In this document: positions 17,530-28,896 of the stretch, piece after piece
Layout: the number at the start of each line of letters is the position of its first letter
Position numbering within the stretch: position 1 is the first letter of the stretch
Assembly: GCA_902779165.1 (NCBI GenBank)
Contig: CACZAN010000012.1
Coordinates: 40,814 to 104,813 of the forward strand
From: an uncultured Bacteroidales bacterium
Lineage (GTDB): Bacteria > Bacteroidota > Bacteroidia > Bacteroidales > Bacteroidaceae
Reading direction: 5' to 3'
Length of the DNA: 64,000 bases
Translations under genes and position numbers: made by a program
Notes under the pieces: generated by a model
Database searches by the model: none
What the model was told of the DNA's origin: nothing
The model's input: only the letters and a program-made list of their open reading frames with translations

Positions 17530-17605
17530 GAAACGGAAGGCACGTTCTTACATCCACAGTAAAACAATTTCAGACAAAGACGATTTCTATAGGATTGAGT
17601 TGAAC

Positions 17606-17664
17606 AAACTATAGTTCCTACGACGACAAACTATAGTTCCTTCGACGACGAACTATAGTTCCCC
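17606..17664. repeat. 22-bp tandem repeat, 2.7 copies
   Basis: AAACTATAGTTCCTACGACGAC is followed by a copy with one change (CCTTCG) and a partial third copy. Each unit contains the perfect palindrome AACTATAGTT. The 22-base period places the palindromes about two helical turns apart. Confidence 0.85.
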
Positions 17665-17710
17665 GCCTGATGGAGTCGGCTTCCCGCCCGACAAGCCTTA
17701 GACAACATTT

Positions 17711-17822
17711 TGCAAAAAGTTTACTCCAAAACACTCCGAACACTCCGATACTCTCCGAAAAAAAGGTTAGAAGTTCGGAGTGTTTCGGAGTGTTCGGAGT
17801 GTTTTGGAGTAAACTTTTTGCA
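17711..17822. repeat. 49-bp inverted repeat with a 14-base centre
   Basis: The left arm (17711-17759) and right arm (17774-17822) are reverse complements at 47 of 49 positions. The arms themselves are built from short iterated ACTCCGA units (AACACTCCGAACACTCCGA). No T tract follows the stem. The 17530-18036 spacer holds this element, the 22-bp repeat and the WYL promoter, and no convincing gene. Confidence 0.9.
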
Positions 17823-17985: not shown

Positions 17986-18027
17986 ATAACCTCTGCCTCC
18001 AGTTGGCAGACCTTAGCTCTACCTTTG
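17986..18027 (+). promoter_or_regulatory. WYL-gene promoter with candidate operator
   Basis: The block ATAACCTCTGCC (17986-17997) includes the left half of a perfect palindrome, TCTGCC-N7-GGCAGA (17992-18010). The -7 element TACCTTTG is at 18020-18027. The same 12-mer, a near-perfect version of the palindrome and identical spacing recur at 26400-26441 before the DnaE-like gene. The palindrome covers the region where RNA polymerase contacts lie, so binding there would be expected to repress. Confidence 0.7.
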
Positions 18028-18036
18028 CCGCAAACA

Positions 18037-18990
18037 ATGACGAAAACTATGGTAACAAACGACAGAGGACAAAGCCTCATTTCCAAATACGTCTGGGTGA
18101 TAGAGACCATCTACCGCAGGCGTAAGATCTCATTCAAGGAACTGAATGAACTCTGGCTGCGTGATGACATCAGTCGAGGTGTGGATATTCCCAAGCGCAC
18201 ATTCGACAACTGGCGTTATGTCATCTGGGATATGTTCGGTATAAGCATAGTCAATGAGAACCGTGGTGAGTACCGCTACTACATCGAGAACGAGGAGGAC
18301 ATCAGCAAGAACGGTCTCCGTTCCTGGCTCTACAACACGTTCTGCGTCAGCAACGCTTTGGCCAACAGCCAAAGCATCAAGGACCGCATCATTCTGGAGT
18401 ATGTGCCATCGGGTCAAGATTACCTTCAACCCATCATCGAAGCGATGAAGGAGAACCGCGTGCTGAACATCACCTATCACAGCTACTGGAAGGACGAGGA
18501 AAGCAACTTCGACGTGCAGCCGTATTGTGTGAAGCTGTTCAGACAGCGGTGGTACCTGGTGGCCAGAAGCACCTATACTTATTATTATGAGCAGGGCCCC
18601 CGCATCTATGCTCTCGACCGCATCCACAGCCTCCACAATACGGAAGAAACCTTCGAGATGCCCAAGGACTGGAGCGCCAAGGTGTTCTTCGACGGCTGCT
18701 TCGGCATTATCGCCGATCAAAGCGTGGAGGTGCAGCCCGTCACGTTGAAAGTCTCTGCAGGACAAGCCAATTACATTCGCGACCTCAAGCTCCATGAGTC
18801 GCAGGAAGAAATTGAACGTAACCCTGAATACAGCATCTTCACCCTCAACCTCCGCCCAACCTTCGACTTCATACAAGAATTGCTTTGGAACGGCGAGGAT
18901 GTGGAAGTGCTTGAACCCCTCTGGCTCCATAAGGAGATTGCCGGTAAGATAAAGAGAATGTGGAATAAATATGAAGGAGATTCAGAATGA
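18037..18990 (+). CDS. WYL-domain transcriptional regulator
   Basis: 317 residues. The N-terminal region (about 10-80) looks like a winged helix (ISKYVWVIETIYRRRKISFKELNELWL). The middle holds a WYL domain (about 135-215) with ITYHSYWKDEES, VQPYCVKLFRQRWYLVAR and RIYALDRIHSL, and a WCX-type C-terminal extension follows. WYL proteins such as CapW/BrxR repress defence islands, and others (PafBC, DriD) respond to DNA damage; DriD is activated by single-stranded DNA. The start at 18037 lies nine bases behind the -7 element. The stop overlaps the exonuclease start (ATGA). The palindrome in its own promoter suggests autoregulation. Confidence 0.88.
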   Translation: MTKTMVTNDRGQSLISKYVWVIETIYRRRKISFKELNELWLRDDISRGVDIPKRTFDNWRYVIWDMFGISIVNENRGEYRYYIENEEDISKNGLRSWLYNTFCVSNALANSQSIKDRIILEYVPSGQDYLQPIIEAMKENRVLNITYHSYWKDEESNFDVQPYCVKLFRQRWYLVARSTYTYYYEQGPRIYALDRIHSLHNTEETFEMPKDWSAKVFFDGCFGIIADQSVEVQPVTLKVSAGQANYIRDLKLHESQEEIERNPEYSIFTLNLRPTFDFIQELLWNGEDVEVLEPLWLHKEIAGKIKRMWNKYEGDSE

Positions 18991-19478
18991 AAGACTTTGC
19001 AGCAATAGATTTTGAAACGGCTAACAATGAACGTTCTTCGGTTTGTTCCGTTGGAATCGTCATTGTTCGTAACGGAGAGATAGTGGATTCTTTCTACTCG
19101 CTCATCCAGCCCGAGCCGAACTATTATAACTATTGGTGTTCGCAGGTACATGGACTTTGTCATGAAGATACTGACGATGCACTTGTGTTCCCAAAAGTAT
19201 GGGCTCAGATAGAACCTCTGATAGAAGGTCTGCCTCTTGTGGCTCATAACAAACCATTTGACGAGGGCTGCCTGAAAGCTGTCTTCCGCGTCTATCAGAT
19301 GGACTATCCGGACTATGAGTTCTACGACACCCTCGCCGCCGCCCGCCGCAAGTTCCGTTATCTGCCCAACCACCAGCTGCACACTGTAGCCGCAGAATGT
19401 GGCTACTGTTTAGAGAATCACCACCACGCGCTGGCTGATGCAGAGGCTTGTGCGTGGATTGCAAGAGAGATTCTGTGA
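18987..19478 (+). CDS. DEDDh 3'-5' exonuclease (DnaQ-like)
   Basis: 163 residues, a stand-alone exonuclease domain. All catalytic residues are visible: D8 and E10 in AIDFET, D92 in AHNKPFDE, and H146 and D151 in HHHALADAEA. Such domains remove nucleotides from DNA or RNA 3' ends and include the proofreading subunit of DNA polymerase III. It is translationally coupled to the WYL regulator by a four-base overlap, so it is produced from the operator-bearing promoter. A DnaE-like polymerase under the matching promoter lies 7.5 kb downstream. A diverged copy of its last residues lies at 20528. Confidence 0.9.
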   Translation: MKDFAAIDFETANNERSSVCSVGIVIVRNGEIVDSFYSLIQPEPNYYNYWCSQVHGLCHEDTDDALVFPKVWAQIEPLIEGLPLVAHNKPFDEGCLKAVFRVYQMDYPDYEFYDTLAAARRKFRYLPNHQLHTVAAECGYCLENHHHALADAEACAWIAREIL

Positions 19479-19538
19479 AAATAGCATTAAAGATGACACA
19501 TTTTTGAGATTTAATGACTCTTTGTGAAAGAAAAGAAT

Positions 19539-19546
19539 TATCTTTG
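19539..19546 (+). promoter_or_regulatory. -7 element (TATCTTTG) of the RhuM-Doc gene
   Basis: Located 17 bases before the ATG at 19564. It lacks the palindrome seen before the WYL and polymerase genes, so the McrBC-side genes may be regulated separately. Confidence 0.6.
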
Positions 19547-19563
19547 CCTGCAAAATCGTAGAT

Positions 19564-20535
19564 ATGGAAGAGAATAAGATAATAATTTACCAGACAGAAG
19601 ACGGACAGACACAGATTGATGTCCGGCTGGAGAATGAGACTGTGTGGCTAAATGTAGAGCAGATGTCGCTCCTTTTTAATCGTGAGGAGTCAAATGTTCG
19701 TCGCCATATAATTAATGTATTCAAAGAGGGTGAACTTGAAAGAGAGAATAACGTGCATTTTTTACACGTTAATGGAGTGAAAAAGCCAGTTCCCTTTTAT
19801 AACCTTGATGTCATCATCTCCGTCGGTTATCGCGTCAAAAGCAAACGCGGTACTGCTTTTCGTATCTGGGCTCGTAAGATAATCAAGGACTATCTTGTTA
19901 AAGGCTACTCCGTCAATGAGCGCATCAGAAAGGAACAAATTGGCGAACTGCGCCAACTAGTGGGTATGCTGGGGCGCACCATTCAGAACCAGCCGCTTCT
20001 CTCCACCGACGAGACGAATGCTCTCTTCGAAGTGGTGACGAATTATACATACGCCCTCGACACGCTCGACAACTACGATTACGAGCGACTGACTATTGAC
20101 AAGACGACCAAGGAAGAGCCATTCCATGCTACCTATGAGAATGCGATGGAGGCAATCAATGGCTTGCGAGAGAAATTCGGAGATTCCGTCTTGTTTGGCA
20201 ACGAGAAGGACGATTCCTTCAAAAGCAGCATCGGACAGATCTACCAGACCTTCGGAGGTGAGGAACTCTACCCCAGCGTCGAGGAGAAAGCCGCCATGTT
20301 GCTCTACCTCGTCACCAAGAACCATTCGTTCAGTGATGGAAACAAGCGCATTGCCGCCACCCTCTTCCTCTGGTTCCTCAACAATAACCACATCCTCTAT
20401 CGCAAAGACGGCTCCAAGCGCTTGGCTGACAACACCCTCGTTGCCCTAACTCTGATGATTGCCGAGAGCAAGACTGAAGAGAAGGATGTGATGGTAAAGG
20501 TGGTGGTGAATTTGATTAATCAGAGAAATGAATAA
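19564..20535 (+). CDS. RhuM-like protein fused to a Doc/Fic domain
   Basis: 323 residues. The N-terminal half (about 5-125) matches the RhuM (virulence RhuM) family, with VWLNVEQMSLLFNREESNVRRHI and VIISVGYRVKSKRGTAFRIWA. The C-terminal half holds a Fic-fold motif, HSFSDGNKR at residues 254-262, with the Lys-Arg ending typical of Doc rather than the Gly-Arg of AMP-transferring Fic enzymes. Doc phosphorylates elongation factor Tu; whether this enzyme does so is unknown. No separate antitoxin gene is evident beside it, so it may not be a classical toxin-antitoxin pair. Its stop overlaps a remnant exonuclease tail. Confidence 0.85.
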   Translation: MEENKIIIYQTEDGQTQIDVRLENETVWLNVEQMSLLFNREESNVRRHIINVFKEGELERENNVHFLHVNGVKKPVPFYNLDVIISVGYRVKSKRGTAFRIWARKIIKDYLVKGYSVNERIRKEQIGELRQLVGMLGRTIQNQPLLSTDETNALFEVVTNYTYALDTLDNYDYERLTIDKTTKEEPFHATYENAMEAINGLREKFGDSVLFGNEKDDSFKSSIGQIYQTFGGEELYPSVEEKAAMLLYLVTKNHSFSDGNKRIAATLFLWFLNNNHILYRKDGSKRLADNTLVALTLMIAESKTEEKDVMVKVVVNLINQRNE

Positions 20536-20632
20536 CGCACTTGCTGATGAAGAAACTCTACTTTCCCACGCAGAAGCATGTTCTTGTATAGTAAGAGATT
20601 TGTTTCAATTATCAATAATTGAAAAAACAACC
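20528..20632 (+). pseudogene. remnant of a DnaQ-like exonuclease C-terminus
   Basis: This frame encodes NALADEETLLSHAEACSCIV followed by RDLF. That matches the last residues of the intact exonuclease (HALADAEACAWIAREIL) with a seven-residue interruption. It begins inside the RhuM-Doc stop region and has no catalytic front half. It is open into the following 73-residue frame but is probably not translated as part of it. Confidence 0.5.
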
Positions 20633-20854
20633 ATGAGTAAAGTCTTTAGAATTACGCCCAAACGAGTGAAACGCTCTAATGGGCAGGTGTTGACACCAGA
20701 CATGTCAATTACCGTGACCACTCGGTCACATACCACCACTCCGTTCTACAATGGAGCAAAGGAAATACAAGAGCAGTACATGCGTATGTATCAGTTTGAC
20801 TACAAGAAAGCATGTTGCTCCGCAAGTGATTTTGAATTTGAAAAGTTGGACTAA
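20633..20854 (+). CDS. small protein of unknown function, 73 residues
   Basis: The ATG at 20633 gives MSKVFRITPKRVKRSNGQVL and a compact basic N-terminal half, followed by TVTTRSHTTTPFYNGAKEIQ and an acidic end (SDFEFEKLD). It resembles small conserved Bacteroidales proteins of about 70 residues that I cannot name with certainty. The longer frame from 20528 would add only the exonuclease remnant. It lies 16 bases before the next gene and probably belongs to the mcrBC transcript. No function can be assigned. Confidence 0.6.
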   Translation: MSKVFRITPKRVKRSNGQVLTPDMSITVTTRSHTTTPFYNGAKEIQEQYMRMYQFDYKKACCSASDFEFEKLD

Positions 20855-20870
20855 ATTAAAGATTTATGAT

Positions 20871-21425
20871 ATGACCTACAAAGAACTTGACAATTTAATT
20901 ACCTTTAAAATGGGGCTTCCCTCTCTCTATCACATTATGCTTGGGATGTCTGTGGATGAAACAGATGAATTCCAAAACGAGTTAGATAATCAACAGACAG
21001 ACAACTATAACTTGAATGATTTTCTGAAAGAATATGGGGTCATTGTTGAGAGAGAAGGATTTACAGAAAAGATGCTCATCCACGACATGTCTGTCTCTAT
21101 CCCAGTAGAACATATAACAGAACACAGCATCAAGAGATTATATGATGAGTTAGCAGCACGAATGAATGTCGTGAATAAACAGTTTAGCATCACGACCAAT
21201 GCAGATGATTCCATTATTGATCTGGATGCTAAGATTCATACAGATTGGTTTGATGTGAAATTCACCCGATTCACTGATGAAGAGAAAGGAATGGACAATG
21301 TTGTTATTTCTTTCATTTGTGAAGACGATGTGAATTTAGATAAACTTCGTTGTATAGCTATTATTGCTGACAATGAAAAAGGATTTGCGGAAGAGATTTT
21401 TGAGTATGTGAATCAGAATAGTTAG
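20871..21425 (+). CDS. unknown acidic protein upstream of mcrB
   Basis: 184 residues from the ATG at 20871 (MTYKELDNLITFKMGLPSL). The C-terminal half alternates hydrophobic and charged residues, as in a beta-rich domain (HTDWFDVKFTRFTDEEKGM, VVISFICEDDVNLDKLRCIA). I recognise no family. It is strongly acidic, AT-rich like mcrBC, and lies 23 bases before mcrB, so it is probably translated from the same message. A role as an accessory or specificity component of the restriction system is possible but unproven. Confidence 0.6.
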   Translation: MTYKELDNLITFKMGLPSLYHIMLGMSVDETDEFQNELDNQQTDNYNLNDFLKEYGVIVEREGFTEKMLIHDMSVSIPVEHITEHSIKRLYDELAARMNVVNKQFSITTNADDSIIDLDAKIHTDWFDVKFTRFTDEEKGMDNVVISFICEDDVNLDKLRCIAIIADNEKGFAEEIFEYVNQNS

Positions 21426-21448
21426 AACTATTTAAACATAAAGAAATT

Positions 21449-22990
21449 ATGGATATTAAAAGCATTTCATTAGAAAAACTTGTTGAGAAAATCAACAATG
21501 ACATGGGACACAATTTTTGTGACACGTTTCGTTACAAGCGCAAAGAGCTTAGTAATTCTGGACGTGCTTCATCTGCTGATATATTATTCAAATTTGTAGA
21601 TGGAGATCGTGACTGGGTTATTAATGAAGGTGGAGGAAAAGAAGTCCAATACCATTTTTATGCTCGCCAAAACGAGGTAGGATATGGCTTGGGGTTTAAT
21701 GCTCAATATGTCCCTTTTGCTAACGAAAAGAGCCCTGTGGATTATATTATGCCTTTCGTAAAAGCGTTCTTAACATTAAAAAGAAATAAAGACAAAACTT
21801 TAGCTGTTGCGGAAGCTGAAGGCTTTTCCCTAATAGAAGGAAACGGATGGGATGGACTTAAAAACATAAAAAATGGCGAGTACTATTTATTTGGCAAAAA
21901 TATAAAAATACAAGATGGTATTTTTCCTGATGAAGAATATAGTCAAATGTTAGAGTACATAAAAAAGGAGTTGTTTGATTTGTATGTAGCAATTTGGAAA
22001 CAAAAGATAGAAATGGAAAAGAAAAATGAAACAATAGGGAAGTTAGTGGAATTATTAACTTCTAATTACAACTTGATTTTTACAGGTGCTCCTGGCACTG
22101 GTAAAACATACCTTGCGCAGCAAATAGCAAAGGAAATGGGATGCAGTGAGACTCGTATGGGATTCGTTCAGTTTCACCCGTCTTACGACTATACTGACTT
22201 CGTTGAAGGACTTCGCCCTAAACAAGATGATAGTGGAAATATAGGTTTTGAGCCTAAAGACGGCATCTTCAAAAAGTTCTGTGAAAATGCATTGCTGGCT
22301 TATCTCTCAAATGCTGACAAAGCTCCTAAATATGTTTTCATCATAGACGAGATTAATCGTGGTGAAATATCTAAAATATTTGGTGAACTTTTCTTCTCTA
22401 TAGATTCGGGGTATCGAGTAACAAAGGAAATGATTGACGATCACCGCTCTGGTAAAAGTCCATTAGTGACTATAAGAACCCAATATTCTAATATGTGTAA
22501 GCGCCCTAATGCTTTTGACGAGGCTTTAGGTATTACGGACGCAAATGATTTTGGCCACTTCTTTGTTCCCGATAATGTCTATATCATAGGCACAATGAAC
22601 GACATTGACCGGAGTGTAGAGAGTATGGACTTCGCCTTCCGTCGTCGTTTTGCTTTTAAAGAGATTAAAGCATCAGAAAACTTGGGGATGCTGGACGACC
22701 TGGAAGATAAGGATAACATTATTAAGAGAATGGAGAATCTGAATGCTGCCATTGAAAAAGTAGAAGGTCTTTCTTCCGCTTATCATATTGGTGGTAGCTA
22801 CTTTATGAAGCTCAAGTTATATCAGAATGAAGACAAAAGCTACGACTATGATTCCCTGTGGAATAATCATCTTGAGGGCTTGTTAATGGAATACCTCAGA
22901 GGCATGGCTGATGCTGAAAAGAAAGTAAAGGAGTTAAAAGAATACTACGATTTAAAACAAATCGCATCAAGAGATGTGGATAACGAATGA
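21449..22990 (+). CDS. mcrB: McrB-like AAA+ GTPase of a type IV restriction system
   Basis: 513 residues. The N-terminal part (about 1-150) looks like an MrcB_N/DUF3578 DNA-sensing domain (INEGGGKEVQYHFYARQNEVGYGLGF). The motor domain has Walker A GAPGTGKT (213-220), Walker B FIIDEINRGEISK (about 296), the McrB-type sensor GTMNDIDRS (GTMN at 381-384) and FRRRFAF. McrB hexamers use GTP to translocate and to activate the McrC nuclease at modified cytosines. The different N-domain implies recognition unlike that of E. coli McrB. The stop overlaps the mcrC start by four bases. Confidence 0.93.
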   Translation: MDIKSISLEKLVEKINNDMGHNFCDTFRYKRKELSNSGRASSADILFKFVDGDRDWVINEGGGKEVQYHFYARQNEVGYGLGFNAQYVPFANEKSPVDYIMPFVKAFLTLKRNKDKTLAVAEAEGFSLIEGNGWDGLKNIKNGEYYLFGKNIKIQDGIFPDEEYSQMLEYIKKELFDLYVAIWKQKIEMEKKNETIGKLVELLTSNYNLIFTGAPGTGKTYLAQQIAKEMGCSETRMGFVQFHPSYDYTDFVEGLRPKQDDSGNIGFEPKDGIFKKFCENALLAYLSNADKAPKYVFIIDEINRGEISKIFGELFFSIDSGYRVTKEMIDDHRSGKSPLVTIRTQYSNMCKRPNAFDEALGITDANDFGHFFVPDNVYIIGTMNDIDRSVESMDFAFRRRFAFKEIKASENLGMLDDLEDKDNIIKRMENLNAAIEKVEGLSSAYHIGGSYFMKLKLYQNEDKSYDYDSLWNNHLEGLLMEYLRGMADAEKKVKELKEYYDLKQIASRDVDNE

Positions 22991-24381
22991 GAATACAGCA
23001 ATTTCGAATCAAGGATAATCATCAGGGACTACCGTTAGCCGAATGGAGGGACGAATCTGATAGAACATTCTCTGACGAAAACAGGAATGATTTGCAGCTG
23101 ATAGCCAATACGTCAGTAGAAGAATTGGTCGAGTCAAGTCCTGAGCTACTGGTCTTTCCTCACAACCTCAACCAAAATGGGGATGAGATAGGCAAGCTGC
23201 ATCTGATTGGTCTTGGAAAAGAAAAAGTTACAACGGGTAATCTTATGGGGTTCATTGGAGTGAATGGCACTCAGATAAATATCTGTTCGCGTTTTTCACA
23301 CGATGACGGGAACGACTATTTCCTGCATTATATGCTCTGCAAGGTTTTTCGACTCAATCTCTTCAACTTGGATTATTCCATTTCAAAAGACACAGCTTTT
23401 GACTTTCTGCTATATCTGTTTCCTCATTATCTGAAGAAAGCGATGCGACAGGGATTATTCAAGCAGTATCAGCAGAAGCGATATAACGATGCAAATGTAC
23501 GTGGAGTCATCAATGTTAGCAGGCATATTCGGGAGAATATTCCATTTAGAGGAACTGTAAGCTATGATACTCGCGAACATAGTTATGATAATAACATAAC
23601 CCAACTCATCCGGCATACTATAGAGTACATTCGACAGAAGCCATTGGGAAGACAGATTCTTCAGAACGATGCCGATACTATTTCATGTGCTTCCCAAATC
23701 GTGTTAGCGACTCCCTCTTATGCTCAAACAAATAGGCAGAAGGTTATTTATGCGAATGTGCGCCCTACCATCCATCCCTATTTTGTGGATTATACCCCAT
23801 TACAGCGTCTTTGTATGCAAATCCTTCGTCACGAAACAATCAAGTACGGCAAAGAGAAAGACAAAGTTTATGGTATTCTTTTTGATGGGGCATGGCTATG
23901 GGAAGAATATTTGGCAACTTTACTTGCTGAGCTTCATTTTCATCATCCAGAGAATAAATTAAAGAAGGGTGGATTCCCTATGTTCAACAGACCTGAGTAC
24001 GATGAAGTATTCAGCAAGAACAGCCGCCGTCTATACCCAGATCTCTATCATAAAAACAATGATAGTATAGACTTTATTCTTGATGCAAAGTATAAACATC
24101 TTAATAATGGGGTTGGGCGAGAAGATTTGTATCAAGTTGTTTCCTATATGTATTGCTCTAAAGCTCCATTTGGTGGTTATCTCTACCCATTGGAATACAA
24201 GCAAAAATCTACACAATACGAATTGAAAGGTTATGGTGGGAATATCATTGTTTATCCGTTCCATGTCCCTCAGAAGGAACAAATAGAGAATAACAAAGAC
24301 TGGTCTTTTGATCAATTCATTTCTTTAATAAGTGACAACGAAAAAAAACTTAAGTATGATATTAAAGGATATATCGATTGA
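22987..24381 (+). CDS. mcrC: McrC-like restriction nuclease subunit
   Basis: 464 residues. The N-terminal region is the McrC barrel that inserts into the McrB ring. The C-terminal PD-(D/E)xK nuclease is visible as YPDLYHKNNDSIDFILDAKYK, with D352, D366 and K368 as the expected metal and catalytic residues. It is longer than E. coli McrC (about 350 residues), mostly in the N-terminal half. Translational coupling to mcrB by ATGA is typical. The gene is AT-rich compared with the flanking chromosome. Confidence 0.92.
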   Translation: MRIQQFRIKDNHQGLPLAEWRDESDRTFSDENRNDLQLIANTSVEELVESSPELLVFPHNLNQNGDEIGKLHLIGLGKEKVTTGNLMGFIGVNGTQINICSRFSHDDGNDYFLHYMLCKVFRLNLFNLDYSISKDTAFDFLLYLFPHYLKKAMRQGLFKQYQQKRYNDANVRGVINVSRHIRENIPFRGTVSYDTREHSYDNNITQLIRHTIEYIRQKPLGRQILQNDADTISCASQIVLATPSYAQTNRQKVIYANVRPTIHPYFVDYTPLQRLCMQILRHETIKYGKEKDKVYGILFDGAWLWEEYLATLLAELHFHHPENKLKKGGFPMFNRPEYDEVFSKNSRRLYPDLYHKNNDSIDFILDAKYKHLNNGVGREDLYQVVSYMYCSKAPFGGYLYPLEYKQKSTQYELKGYGGNIIVYPFHVPQKEQIENNKDWSFDQFISLISDNEKKLKYDIKGYID

Positions 24382-24447
24382 TCTGATAATTATTGGTATG
24401 AAACAAGTAATACATATACCGAAAAATGCATTTAAAATGAATATCGT

Positions 24448-25020
24448 ATGAAAACATTAGCAGACTTATTGAAAGAATTTGACGGCAGACATTTGACGGA
24501 ACAGCAATTTACAGAACAGTTTGAAATGATTGCAAAGGCTGCCATCTATGGAGGACATTTCCGTGTCAACGATGAATACAACGTCTTCATCGTAGAGGTG
24601 GAATTTTATTTCCACTCTGAGGATGATGCCGTCAGCAGTGTTCATGACTTTGCCATGTATCATCGAGGAGCGGTTGACTGGTTCCCTGTTGGATCCCTAC
24701 ATCCACACCGTTCAGGGATTGATGTGACGTTTGAAAGGCAGGGCGCATATCGTGCCAGTTTCCTGATTAGAAAATATGCAATTAATGATGAGATAATCAG
24801 TACCCCCAGTTATTTGCCAGAAGACTTGATAGGGTACACTGGTTGCATTTTAGGCGATGGTCCAAAAATAGAATGGGTGGATACAAACTACGATGACACA
24901 CCGCTGAAAAGAAATCCAAGAATCAAGGTGCGAGCTTATAATGAGCAAGGAATCCCCCTTAATGATGATAATGGTAACAAGCAATATGATAATCGTCCTT
25001 GGCGGTTCACGAAAGCATAA
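24448..25020 (+). CDS. unknown protein, 190 residues, in the deiminase-PLD operon
   Basis: 190 residues beginning MKTLADLLKEFDGRHLTEQQ. The central part has EVEFYFHSEDDAV, MYHRGAVDWFPVGSLHPHRS, GIDVTFE and YRASFLIRKYAI, a pattern with several conserved-looking His, Arg and Asp residues that suggests a folded catalytic or binding domain. I do not recognise the family. It ends six bases before the deiminase-like gene and follows mcrC by 66 bases, so it is probably transcribed with one or both. No function is assigned. Confidence 0.65.
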   Translation: MKTLADLLKEFDGRHLTEQQFTEQFEMIAKAAIYGGHFRVNDEYNVFIVEVEFYFHSEDDAVSSVHDFAMYHRGAVDWFPVGSLHPHRSGIDVTFERQGAYRASFLIRKYAINDEIISTPSYLPEDLIGYTGCILGDGPKIEWVDTNYDDTPLKRNPRIKVRAYNEQGIPLNDDNGNKQYDNRPWRFTKA

Positions 25021-25026
25021 CTTCAA

Positions 25027-25863
25027 ATGACAGAAACTGTTTTTATCTCTGAATGGCTGAAAGAGAGTTACCCTGTGGTGTATGGCAGTCTGTGTCATGC
25101 GTTTGACGTATGTAAAGTTTCGTTCAAAATATTACCTTACTCCAACGACTACTGGTGCCGTGACTTTATGCCTGTTCATATAGGTAATGGCAGATATGTT
25201 GGTTATAACTATCGCCCAGATTATTTGTGGGACGATACCTCCCTAAGGCAATACATCACGAATCAGTTAGCGGCTTGTGAAGGTATTGATTTAGAGATGG
25301 CTGATAGCATGGACATCATTTTTGATGGTGGAAATTATGTTAGATGTGGCGAGACAGTCTTGGTAACAGACAAGATTTTCATGGAGAATCCACAATGGCG
25401 ACCATTGCGTCTGATAGAGCGGATGGAAGAAGCATTTCAAGCAGAAGTTATCCTTCTGCCTTGGGATATGGAAGACGAATGTGGCCACGCTGATGGAATG
25501 GTGGCTTGGTTAGGTGGTAACCGCATACTCTTGAACAACTTCCGGCAGTTAGAGAAGGGTAAAAAGAAGCCTTTCACGAAAAGAGTCTTGAAAATACTGG
25601 AGGCGCATTATGACATCACAGAACTCTGCTACGACTGCAAAGTTCATCCAAAAAGTTGGTGCTATCTCAACTATTTGGAGACCGGCAATGGAATTATCCT
25701 TCCTGCTTTGTCAGAAACAATGGATTGCGACAACGACCTTGCAGCACTTGAATGCTTCAAGTCACTTTTCCCCGAAAAAGAAGTGCTTCAGGTCTTTGCG
25801 AGGCCTCTTATTAAAGAAGGTGGTGCTATCCATTGCATCACATGGAACTTATTTCAGCAATAG
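25027..25863 (+). CDS. agmatine-deiminase/peptidylarginine-deiminase family protein
   Basis: 278 residues, shorter than agmatine deiminases (about 350-370). The guanidino-modifying enzyme residues are all visible: D46 in WCRDFMP, GGN at 101-103, H154 and D156 in ECGHADGMVAW, and the nucleophile C270 in GGAIHCITWN. Family members hydrolyse the guanidinium group of agmatine, free arginine or protein arginine. There is no signal peptide, unlike the secreted Porphyromonas enzyme, so a cytoplasmic substrate is expected. Its place between an unknown protein and a PLD nuclease, inside a restriction island, is unusual and does not suggest polyamine metabolism. Confidence 0.85.
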   Translation: MTETVFISEWLKESYPVVYGSLCHAFDVCKVSFKILPYSNDYWCRDFMPVHIGNGRYVGYNYRPDYLWDDTSLRQYITNQLAACEGIDLEMADSMDIIFDGGNYVRCGETVLVTDKIFMENPQWRPLRLIERMEEAFQAEVILLPWDMEDECGHADGMVAWLGGNRILLNNFRQLEKGKKKPFTKRVLKILEAHYDITELCYDCKVHPKSWCYLNYLETGNGIILPALSETMDCDNDLAALECFKSLFPEKEVLQVFARPLIKEGGAIHCITWNLFQQ

Positions 25864-25866
25864 CCT

Positions 25867-26377
25867 ATGACAACCTACATCTCCAACTCCGCCCATTACA
25901 AAGAAGTGCTTTCACGGGTTCAATCCGTGAAGCACATGCTTTGGATTGGTACTGCCGACATCAAAGACCTTTATGTGGAAGTGGTCAAAGAGAAGAAACC
26001 ATTTCTGGCTCTCATAGCCCAACTCATCAGGCGTGGTGTGGAGGTAAGGCTCATTCATGCAAAAGAACCAGGTCCGAACTTTCGTGAGGATTTTGACAAG
26101 TACCCTGTTCTCTATGACCACTTGGAGCGTGTGCTCTGTCCTCGTGTTCATTTCAAGATGCTTGTCTTCGACGGAAAAGAAGTATATATAGGTAGCGCAA
26201 ACCTCACAGGTGCAGGCATTGGCATGAAGGCTGAAACCTCGCAACTTTGAGGCGGGCATATTAACTGATGATCCAGGAATCATTGAACAGGCTATGAACC
26301 AGTTCGATGAAGTGTGGATTGGAAAGCATTGCAAATCATGTAAACGAAGAGACTTTTGTTCAGACCCAATCATTTAA
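25867..26377 (+). pseudogene. PLD/HKD-family nuclease, frameshifted
   Basis: The first frame encodes 127 residues with one HKD motif (HFKMLVFDGKEVYIGSANLTG) and stops at 26250. A second frame takes over at about 26243 with NFEAGILTDDPGIIEQAMNQ and continues to 26377, ending in a cysteine cluster (HCKSCKRRDFC). PLD nucleases normally read straight from GSANLTG into NFEAG, so the pieces are one gene interrupted by loss of two bases (or gain of one) near TCGCAAC. With a single HKD motif, the intact protein would act as a dimer. A sequencing error or a recoding site would also explain the break. Confidence 0.75.
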
Positions 26378-26399
26378 TTGAGACATAATGCACTTTCCT

Positions 26400-26441
26400 A
26401 TAACCTCTGCCACAGTTTGGCTGATGTAGGTCGTAACTTTG
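26400..26441 (+). promoter_or_regulatory. promoter of the DnaE-like gene with candidate WYL operator
   Basis: ATAACCTCTGCC (26400-26411), then TCTGCC-N7-GGCTGA (26406-26424, one mismatch from a perfect palindrome), then the -7 element TAACTTTG (26434-26441). The first base of the 12-mer is 34 bases before the -7 box, exactly as at the WYL promoter. Confidence 0.7.
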
Positions 26442-26466: not shown

Positions 26467-28896
26467 ATGAACAGATTCCGATTTGTACATTTGAATGTTC
26501 ACTCACATTGCTCCATTATGGATGGGTGTGCCAGCATAAAGGAATTGGTGGATGCAGCCATCAAAGACAGAATGCCAGGCATTGCTATTACCGACAATGG
26601 TAATATGTTTGGTGTGATGGAGTTTTTCGACTATGTTTCTCGTATCAACAATGAAAGACGGCAGAAGGGGAAGAAACCTTTTAAGCCTATCATTGGTTGT
26701 GAACTGTATGTTGCACCAGAAGCAAAGGAGGACAAGAAGCTTTGCAAGCACTGCAAAGGCTTTCGCTTAACAGTCTTGGCAAAGAACTATCAAGGCTACA
26801 AAAACCTCATCAAGATTGTCAGTAACTCATGGACTGACGGTTTCTATATGAGACCCCGAACAGACCATCATGACCTGGAGAAATACCATGATGGGCTAAT
26901 TGTCCTCTCTGGTGGTATTGGAAGTGAAGTCTTTACTGAAATTTCCGATGGTGACATTGAGGGTTTGGATGAAACAATCAGATGGTATAGACAGACTTTT
27001 GCCGAGGATTTTTATATAGAACTGCTGCGTTATGCAGATTTGTTCATAAACGGTTCCGAGTTACAAAGAATGAATGAACGCCTCATTGAAAAGGCTAACG
27101 CAAATGGTGTTAAGATTGTTGCTACAAATGACGTTCATTATCTAAGGTCAACTGATATACGTGCATATAACACGTTACGATCCATTGCAGAAGGAAAGAC
27201 AGTCGAAGAGTATGAGAAGTTGAATTATCCTCTAAATAGATGGCTGAGAAGTCGGAAAGAAATGTGCGAACTTTTCTCAGATGTTCCTGCGGCATTGGAG
27301 AATACAATGGAAATCTTTAATAAGGTTAAATTCTATGACATACGTCATGCTCCGATTGTTCCTGCCATTAACATTCCCAATGGGTTCGGGAATGAGAGAA
27401 GGGAAAAGGAGGAAAACTATCTGGAATACCTTTCTTTTTCCAAAGCAAAACAGATATATGGAGAATTGCTTCCTGAAGATGTTTCTGATAGACTGAAGTT
27501 TGAACTCCAAATCATCAAGCAGAGAGCGGCTTCTGGTTATTTCCTCTTTTTACAGGATGTAATCAATACAGTTCAATCAGAGCTTGGCGTATGGGTCGGC
27601 CCTGGACGTGGCTCAGCTGCTGGTAGTCTTGTATGTTATTGCTTGGGTGTTACTAAGATTGACCCTTTGAAACACGATTTGCTCTTTGAGCGTTTTCTAA
27701 GTCAAGAAGGTACGGCGTTCCCAGACATAGATATAGACTTCGATGATGAAGGTAGAGAACGTGTCCTTGAATGGCTTCAGCAGAGATATGGCAAGGACTG
27801 CTGTGCGCATATTGTTTCTTTCCGCACATTCTCAACGGCAGATGCGTTCAGTACAGTAGCAAAAGTAACCCAAATGCATACTCCTGACATTCTGGCTATT
27901 AACGAAATTCTGTCAGGTTATTTCTGGCGTTCTATAAAGAATTACATCAAATATGAACCAAAGTTAAGAAAAGCTATTCGAAAAGTCGGAATCCCTTTGC
28001 GTAATGCATTTGCTAATACTGCTATATTAGAAAGAAAAATCTGTGGATTAGGTGTTCATGCTTGTGGGTTTATTGTTGCTGACGAGCCTGTATCTGATTG
28101 GACACCTGTTTCAACTTGTTCGATAGAAGATTCAAAGGGTAATGAACAAATAGTGAATTGTACTCAATACGATGGATGGCATGTGGAGTCGTCTGGTCTT
28201 ATAAAATTTGATTTCCTAGGTCTTGAAACGCTTTCCAAGATGAGGGATATATGTAAGAGTGTCAAAGTTCATTATGATAAGGATTTCGATATTGAAAAGA
28301 TTCCGATTGATGATGAGAAGACGATAGAACTTTTCCAAACAGGCCGAACCGATGACGTGTTTCAGTTCAGCTCAAAAGGAATGCAAAAATTCTTGCAAAA
28401 ACTTCATCCTACATGCTTTGAGGATTTGGTCATCTTGAATTGCTTGTATCGCCTAGGGCCAATGGAATATATTTCAACTCTCGTCAGACAAAAGCATAGC
28501 AAGAAAGCCGTCAAGTATATGATTCCTTGTATGGAAAAATATCTTCAAAATACTTACGGCATTATTGTTTATCAGGAACAGATTATGATGCTTTCTCGAT
28601 TGATTGCCGACTTTAATAGAAGTGAGAGCGACTTGCTGAGAAAAGCCTTTGGTAAAAGGAATATGGATGTGCTTTCTGTCTTGAAGCCCCGTTTCATAGA
28701 AGGTGGCATAAAGAATGGGCACAAAAAGAATGCCCTTGAAAAGGTATGGAATGAAATGGAAGCTAAAGGTATGTACGCTTTCCAAAAGTCCCATGCTGTT
28801 TGCTACACATGGTTGGCCTATCAAATGGCATATTTGAAAGCAAACTATCCCGATGAGTTCAAACATGTCATGGAGGAAAAAGGTATAACATCATAA
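26467..28896 (+). CDS. truncated DnaE-type DNA polymerase (C family)
   Basis: 809 residues; replicative DnaE proteins have about 1150-1250. The PHP domain (1-270) keeps HSH at 12-14 and NDVHY. It has N44 in place of the metal-binding His of TDHGNM, and R100 where the usual HLVLLAKN has His, so the PHP nuclease is probably impaired. The polymerase core has GPGRGSAAGS, catalytic D420 and D422 in PDIDID, and the third aspartate D582 in KFDFLGL. The protein ends after the fingers (AYQMAYLKANYPDEF), so the HhH, beta-clamp-binding, OB and tau-binding regions are absent. It has its own promoter, which resembles that of the WYL gene. It may be an accessory or error-prone polymerase. Confidence 0.88.
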   Translation: MNRFRFVHLNVHSHCSIMDGCASIKELVDAAIKDRMPGIAITDNGNMFGVMEFFDYVSRINNERRQKGKKPFKPIIGCELYVAPEAKEDKKLCKHCKGFRLTVLAKNYQGYKNLIKIVSNSWTDGFYMRPRTDHHDLEKYHDGLIVLSGGIGSEVFTEISDGDIEGLDETIRWYRQTFAEDFYIELLRYADLFINGSELQRMNERLIEKANANGVKIVATNDVHYLRSTDIRAYNTLRSIAEGKTVEEYEKLNYPLNRWLRSRKEMCELFSDVPAALENTMEIFNKVKFYDIRHAPIVPAINIPNGFGNERREKEENYLEYLSFSKAKQIYGELLPEDVSDRLKFELQIIKQRAASGYFLFLQDVINTVQSELGVWVGPGRGSAAGSLVCYCLGVTKIDPLKHDLLFERFLSQEGTAFPDIDIDFDDEGRERVLEWLQQRYGKDCCAHIVSFRTFSTADAFSTVAKVTQMHTPDILAINEILSGYFWRSIKNYIKYEPKLRKAIRKVGIPLRNAFANTAILERKICGLGVHACGFIVADEPVSDWTPVSTCSIEDSKGNEQIVNCTQYDGWHVESSGLIKFDFLGLETLSKMRDICKSVKVHYDKDFDIEKIPIDDEKTIELFQTGRTDDVFQFSSKGMQKFLQKLHPTCFEDLVILNCLYRLGPMEYISTLVRQKHSKKAVKYMIPCMEKYLQNTYGIIVYQEQIMMLSRLIADFNRSESDLLRKAFGKRNMDVLSVLKPRFIEGGIKNGHKKNALEKVWNEMEAKGMYAFQKSHAVCYTWLAYQMAYLKANYPDEFKHVMEEKGITS

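Follow-up and report, generated by a model that had tools for sequence, protein, structure and literature searches.

A palindromic promoter element shared by two predicted promoters of a modular Bacteroidales island may be the operator of its own WYL-WCX protein

The DNA analysed here, referred to as the window, is a 64,000-nucleotide stretch of a contig from an uncultured Bacteroidales bacterium (CACZAN010000012.1, positions 40,814 to 104,813, forward strand). It contains an island of genes that all lie on one strand and have a GC content of 0.35-0.50, compared with 0.51-0.58 in the neighbourhood. The island opens with the gene of a WYL-WCX regulator, which is followed by a DEDDh 3'-5' exonuclease gene and variable cargo, and a short DnaE-like C-family polymerase is encoded 8 kb further on. 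Both the WYL gene and the polymerase gene are preceded by the same promoter element, a 27-bp palindrome with a Bacteroidales -7 box behind it.

A first-pass annotation of this DNA had noticed that the block ATAACCTCTGCC occurs at 17986 and 26400 and leads in both places into a palindrome, perfect before the WYL gene and with one mismatch before the polymerase gene, with TAnnTTTG exactly 34 bases from the start of the block. These observations were confirmed in every point. Within the window the block is not repeated exactly anywhere else. As inverted repeats, TCTGCCTCCAGTTGGCAGA (17992-18010) is perfect and TCTGCCACAGTTTGGCTGA (26406-26424) has a single mismatch, and TACCTTTG and TAACTTTG begin 34 bases from the first base of their blocks, at 18020 and 26434, respectively. 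The natural unit is a 27-mer in which a 5-bp spacer separates two half-sites of 11 bp each (11+5+11); it is clearest in relatives as GACCTCTGCCA-CCAGT-TGGCGGAGGTC. The -7 box TAnnTTTG starts at offset 32 from the first base of the 27-mer at both window sites, leaving a gap of five bases after the palindrome.

The specificity of the element lies in its full length. The loose palindrome alone was not significant in the window (17 matches with up to two mismatches vs. 11.9 expected), and ATAACCTCTGCC at the same tolerance gave nine window matches vs. 4.5 expected. The long element including the -7 box, with up to three mismatches allowed, was found at exactly two places in the organism's own assembly (3.59 Mb, 86% complete), and its reversed-pattern control gave 0 matches there. 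A third exact palindrome of the genome, on contig C13, was rejected as a site, as it sits within an 803-amino-acid reading frame. Moreover, a weight matrix built from relatives only, with the window excluded, ranked both window sites first (22.8 and 21.6 bits); the next window score was 3.2, and the highest score in 20 mononucleotide-shuffled windows was 17.8. Both window sites scored under every seed site (25.3-44.6) and are outliers of the family. The window element is more than a chance occurrence.

The element recurs in related genomes. Related WYL loci were collected in one scan of species genomes, of which the best 80 of 105 were kept, and in 76 of these 80 the element was present upstream of the WYL match, at a distance of no more than 250 bases. 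Among the four exceptions, L013 begins at the gene, L079 carries a diverged palindrome, and in L058 and L059 the site lies further up, ahead of an inserted gene. Over 1.37 Mb the matrix detected 111 sites of at least 15 bits (window included), all on the strand of the WYL gene, and none in reversed sequences. More than one site was present in 26 fetched loci and in the window, with L013 having a second-type site alone, and 31 second sites were spread over 27 of the 80 loci. The -7 box stood at offset 32 in 62 of 64 unique WYL-side sites and 25 of 28 unique second sites. The genes behind the 31 second sites encode DnaE in five cases and elsewhere proteins of unknown families, an IetA-like AAA protein or a KaiC-like protein; behind some second sites no reading frame was found nearby. 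Comparison of first and second sites within a locus (31 pairs, window included) gave an agreement of 0.88-0.90 for the half-sites, 0.72 for the -7 box and 0.36-0.38 for the flanks, indicating that what is shared is a footprint and that no entire promoter was recently copied. The idea that both window sites represent a single regulatory element, linked to the WYL gene and present also ahead of the polymerase gene, held up, and the pattern repeats in related genomes.

The association with the polymerase was less complete. Twelve island-type DnaE genes with an intact start were compared, namely that of the window and others with 66-92% N-terminal identity, and the element lies just upstream of eight (window, L018, L026, L029, L044, L054, L136, and L160). 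L107 and L136 denote one place, as do L149 and L190, and each such pair entered the counts once. Absence of the palindrome beside orthologous polymerase genes, named by the first-pass annotation as evidence against its proposal, is therefore not what was found overall; four orthologues (L010, L030, L033, and L149) do lack it and count against a general link. In three of these four the preceding frame stops 24-63 bases before DnaE, which suggests that the gene is read through from an upstream promoter, and in L010 the gap is about 350 bases. The polymerase keeps the motifs PDIDIDF and KFDFLGL, which presumably hold the catalytic aspartates, in alignment with the Thermus enzyme. The match ends at residue 840 of 1220, indicating that the C-terminal part is missing, and the domain matches of the window protein likewise include none to that part. 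A DnaE search of the 201 genomes of the family at E ≤ 1e-250 returned only the window's own gene, and a wider search at E ≤ 1e-200 in 399 genomes returned 12, of which the own gene (811 codons) and that of G297 (816 codons) are short, the remainder having 1213-1262 codons. An origin as a phage gene was considered and rejected, the phage and viral matches being many but mostly distant. L160, a contig from a viral collection, encodes a short DnaE of 71% identity that is preceded by a GACCTCTGCTACCAGTTGGCAGAGGTC palindrome. In L010 (16607-19437), a second WYL gene, sharing 37% identity with that of the window, stands behind a diverged island-type DnaE.

The element was also followed into more distant WYL loci. 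Among 23 loci with less than 60% WYL identity (relatives at 42-58%), 14 have TAnnTTTG within 160 bases. In these 14 promoters the palindrome score peaked at offset 32, with a mean of 6.0 of 11 pairs, compared with a mean of 2.9 at other offsets (standard deviation 0.57, largest 4.7), and at least 7 of 11 pairs were reached in 7 of the 14 vs. 4% of 203 other promoters. The distant half-sites are often TGTGC/GCACA or similar, so that the position tends to be kept and the sequence altered. The distant WYL proteins also differ in the putative recognition helix, which reads PKRTFDNWR in most close relatives. Furthermore, three annotated plasmids, from Prevotella sp. E2-28, Segatella hominis and Segatella copri DSM 18205, carry a distant WYL gene, and each of their nine changed-type elements has its -7 box 26-76 bases ahead of a same-strand annotated gene (two WYL genes themselves and seven others). 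A changed-type half-site pattern, drawn up when the first sites were already known, gave 11 matches at offset 32 in seven distant loci, with a mean of 0.5 and a largest value of 3 at other offsets. Since the site changes jointly at several operons of one island, a factor encoded by the island is implicated, and from the sequences compared the WYL protein is the obvious candidate.

The position of the palindrome within the promoter bears on how such a factor might act. TAnnTTTG spans -12 to -5 in a flavobacterium (PMC9723704), so the palindrome extends from about -44 to -18. It is centred near -31 and covers the -33 region, with a normal TAnnTTTG -7 box in the window. A -33 TTG was present in 2 of 45 island promoters vs. 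71 of 191 other promoters. The palindrome's own TTG (in TTGGC) was rejected as a -33 box, its spacing being 14, when other promoters mostly have 19-20. In addition, among the 25 second sites whose box stands at offset 32, 22 carry TTnnTTTG and not TAnnTTTG, which makes the bare promoter look weak.

The WYL protein contains Pfam WYL and WCX domains, and the helices and strands predicted for its N-terminus can be aligned with DriD starting close to the first residues, giving the winged helix-turn-helix (wHTH), WYL and WCX layout of DriD/PafBC-type activators. The best structural match is DriD, and the activators DriD and PafBC come ahead of the repressors BrxR (of BREX systems) and CapW (of CBASS), which are also clear matches. 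Residues Q170, R171, W172, Y173, D194, and R195 are invariant in 50 WYL sequences and would be compatible with binding of single-stranded DNA; the alignment comprises 45 of the 80 loci, four proteins from other genomes and the window, 48 loci having been considered and L009, L010, and L043 omitted since their tblastn match begins across an upstream stop. DriD of Caulobacter crescentus shares the wHTH-WYL-WCX layout at about 20% identity. According to its report (PMC12340889), the DriD site is, like that of the window, a palindrome over the -35 region at a constant distance from the -10 box and with a poor -35 element, and its regulon covers several promoters including those of an exonuclease (recJ) and a replication gene (dnaG), similar to the arrangement here; however, it is a chromosomal damage response, whereas the window has a defence island with a Bacteroidales -7/-33 promoter. 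The mycobacterial WYL-WCX activator PafBC is described as acting by sigma adaptation after binding single-stranded DNA, but as a heterodimer with another site in a chromosomal damage response (PMC11804915). No description of a Bacteroidales WYL system was found in the open PMC literature among the matches listed.

One cis-encoded WYL protein very probably binds the promoters of these modular islands, as judged from sequence comparison. We infer that the WYL-WCX protein would bind both palindromes of the window, where the palindrome appears to replace the -33 TTG element of a Bacteroidales promoter. With a ligand in the WYL pocket, the protein would hold RNA polymerase on an intrinsically weak promoter, probably in the manner of DriD. 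By analogy, the ligand may be single-stranded DNA produced by phage attack or DNA damage. Activation would raise the protein's own operon, possibly including the exonuclease, RhuM-Fic and McrBC genes and so on, as well as a second unit 8 kb on, headed by the short DnaE polymerase. We assign this explanation as a whole, in which the WYL-WCX protein binds both palindromes as a DriD-like activator, a probability of roughly 60%. The regulon looks wider than the exonuclease and the polymerase named in the first-pass proposal: the first promoter could serve WYL, the exonuclease, RhuM-Fic, McrBC and further genes, and in other genomes second sites stand before other genes.

Several observations weigh against this explanation. 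Nine of the 23 distant WYL loci have no TAnnTTTG within 160 bases, a score of 7 of 11 pairs is attained by only 7 of the 14 distant promoters, and the pure palindrome criterion applied to the seven distant loci gave 10 at offset 32 with a mean of 1.6 elsewhere but also 7 at offset 60. The WYL-side site is only partly symmetric, with a mean of 0.57 of the 11 pairs, compared with 0.81 in second sites. The 45 island promoters share ancestry, so that the p value for the missing TTG overstates their independence. A TTG at spacing 19-20 is present in 4 of the 14 distant promoters (L187, L201, L206, and L202), inside the palindrome in the first three and without a clear palindrome in L202, indicating that its absence is not universal. 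The structure model of the WYL protein has a mean pLDDT (predicted local distance difference test) of 77 with a poor linker. DriD itself is reported to activate a divergent operon and not its own gene (PMC12340889), a regulator heading its own operon is typical of autorepression, and the WYL regulators of defence islands described in PMC9122601 and PMC9122588, BrxR and CapW, are repressors.

The same sites and the same protein could thus serve repression, with a dimer over the -33 region blocking RNA polymerase until a ligand releases it during infection, close to the first-pass proposal that the WYL protein represses, or is relieved at, both promoters. BrxR and CapW control defence genes from a palindrome in their own promoter region, as would be the case here, where the site lies in the promoter of an operon that begins with WYL and the island carries defence cargo. 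The 11+5+11 geometry corresponds to the BrxR box, and the two boxes per island find a parallel in pEFER (PMC9122601). The TTG kept in four distant promoters is also in line with repression. RptR, the repressor of a restriction island, is likewise the first gene of its island and has a conserved site over the island promoter, but it has another fold and 6-bp palindromes at the -10 box (PMC12255303). However, the sites known for CapW and BrxR lie over the -10 box and downstream of it, respectively (PMC9122588, PMC9122601), whereas the palindrome here precedes the -7 box and covers the -33 region in a fixed register; the early analogy with CapW/BrxR therefore holds for the geometry and fails for the position. 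A repressor would need neither a fixed spacing to the -7 box nor the loss of the -33 TTG, and the bare promoter that it would have to silence looks weak. Given the -33 position, the missing TTG, the fixed spacing and the nearest relatives DriD and PafBC, we regard repression as possible but doubtful; the promoter evidence fits activation better, without proving it.

It could also be proposed that another host factor binds the palindrome and that the WYL gene is just one of its targets. In the 201 family genomes the motif (up to three mismatches) was present in 23, at 38 places vs. 16 for a reversed control, so some of the matches are due to chance. A close WYL (E below 1e-98, a cut chosen after the list was seen) was present in 14 genomes and coincided with the motif in 11 (Fisher p 1e-9); at E ≤ 1e-80 the motif was present in 11 of 30 genomes. 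This co-occurrence is partly trivial because the motif sits before the WYL gene. Twelve of the 23 motif-matching genomes have no WYL match at E ≤ 1e-80, as a host factor would allow, and among the 11 of these examined (G096 left out) five showed no island gene nearby. In the other six, a WYL fragment or a different gene of the island is present, in several cases at a contig end. Moreover, the organism's own genome has the full element only at this island, and the half-sites vary together with the WYL protein, including those ahead of further operons within one island, which makes a host factor improbable. In L130 (387-1019) the island keeps the operator and the exonuclease, with only WYL residues 289-319 matched, and is a natural near-deletion of the regulator. 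That the repeats are sites of recombination or cargo exchange is very improbable, for although they bracket variable cargo in direct orientation, a conserved -7 box follows the palindrome at a constant distance and all nine sites of the annotated plasmids sit just before gene starts.

The features of the island are listed in Table 1.

Table 1. Coordinates of the island features in the window
Feature	Position	Strand	Remark
Operator 1, 27-bp imperfect palindrome before WYL gene	17988..18014	+	Element also in 76/80 relatives
-7 box TACCTTTG, operator offset 32	18020..18027	+	
WYL-WCX regulator	18049..18990	+	ATG at 18049 likely start, by comparison with relatives
DEDDh 3'-5' exonuclease	18987..19478	+	4-base overlap with WYL gene
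RhuM N-terminus fused to Fic/DOC domain, variable cargo	19564..20535	+	
Small DUF6140-like protein, recurrent cargo	20633..20854	+	Pfam match on relative in L065
Protein of unknown family, cargo	20751..21425	+	True start may be further downstream
McrB-like AAA protein, cargo	21449..22990	+	
McrC-like protein, cargo	22987..24381	+	
Protein of unknown family	24448..25020	+	Adjoins deiminase-like gene in some relatives
Agmatine/peptidyl-arginine deiminase-like protein	25027..25863	+	
PLD-family protein, shortened by frame shift	25867..26250	+	Relatives ~170 amino acids
Operator 2, before polymerase gene	26402..26428	+	
-7 box TAACTTTG, operator offset 32	26434..26441	+	
Short DnaE-like C-family polymerase	26467..28896	+	PHP, alpha NTPase, finger domains

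The WYL start listed alternatively, a TTG at position 18025, would overlap with the -7 box. Nearly the whole length of the exonuclease can be aligned with DEDDh enzymes. The typical order in relatives is WYL, sometimes extra genes, the exonuclease, variable cargo, PLD, often a second site, and DnaE or other genes; over the 80 loci, a relative of the exonuclease was found in 65, PLD in 25 and DnaE (fragments included) in 11. The cargo includes McrBC, GmrSD, Mrr, and RhuM-Fic proteins. WYL relatives of more than 85% identity occur on contigs labelled Prevotella, Parabacteroides distasonis, Muribaculaceae, and Paludibacteraceae, which suggests that the island has spread horizontally. The pair formed by the protein of unknown family and the deiminase-like protein stands directly behind WYL or near the island end (L024 10992-12391 and 18743-20155, L051 5772-7198, window 24448-25863). 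The PLD-family gene (25867-26377) stops early, and because the remainder of the protein of its relatives continues in another frame, this copy is broken or reflects an assembly error. Just upstream of the island promoter, a near-perfect inverted repeat (17711-17822; 49-nucleotide arms, 96%; 14-nucleotide loop) may act as a strong terminator or mark where an inserted element ends, and three tandem 22-nucleotide repeats at 17604-17669 have ACTATAGTTCC inside.

In a broader form, the activator explanation holds that mobile, modular Bacteroidales islands are switched on, as opposed to being released from repression, by a cis-encoded WYL activator that replaces the -33 contact of the primary sigma factor at several promoters simultaneously, so that a nucleic acid signalling attack would bring up Type IV restriction, a dedicated exonuclease and a short DnaE for repair or copying together; we consider the chances of this evenly balanced. 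The 27-bp palindrome with a -7 box at offset 32 provides a signature of island genes that start transcription units, and it also flags many island genes of unknown function. Through the element, a short C-family polymerase is linked to a defence regulon. Relatives of the system are found on sequenced plasmids of named Prevotella and Segatella strains, which makes the system directly testable. If activation is true, it would be an instance of defence genes under a WYL activator and, in Bacteroidetes, of the replacement of a sigma contact.

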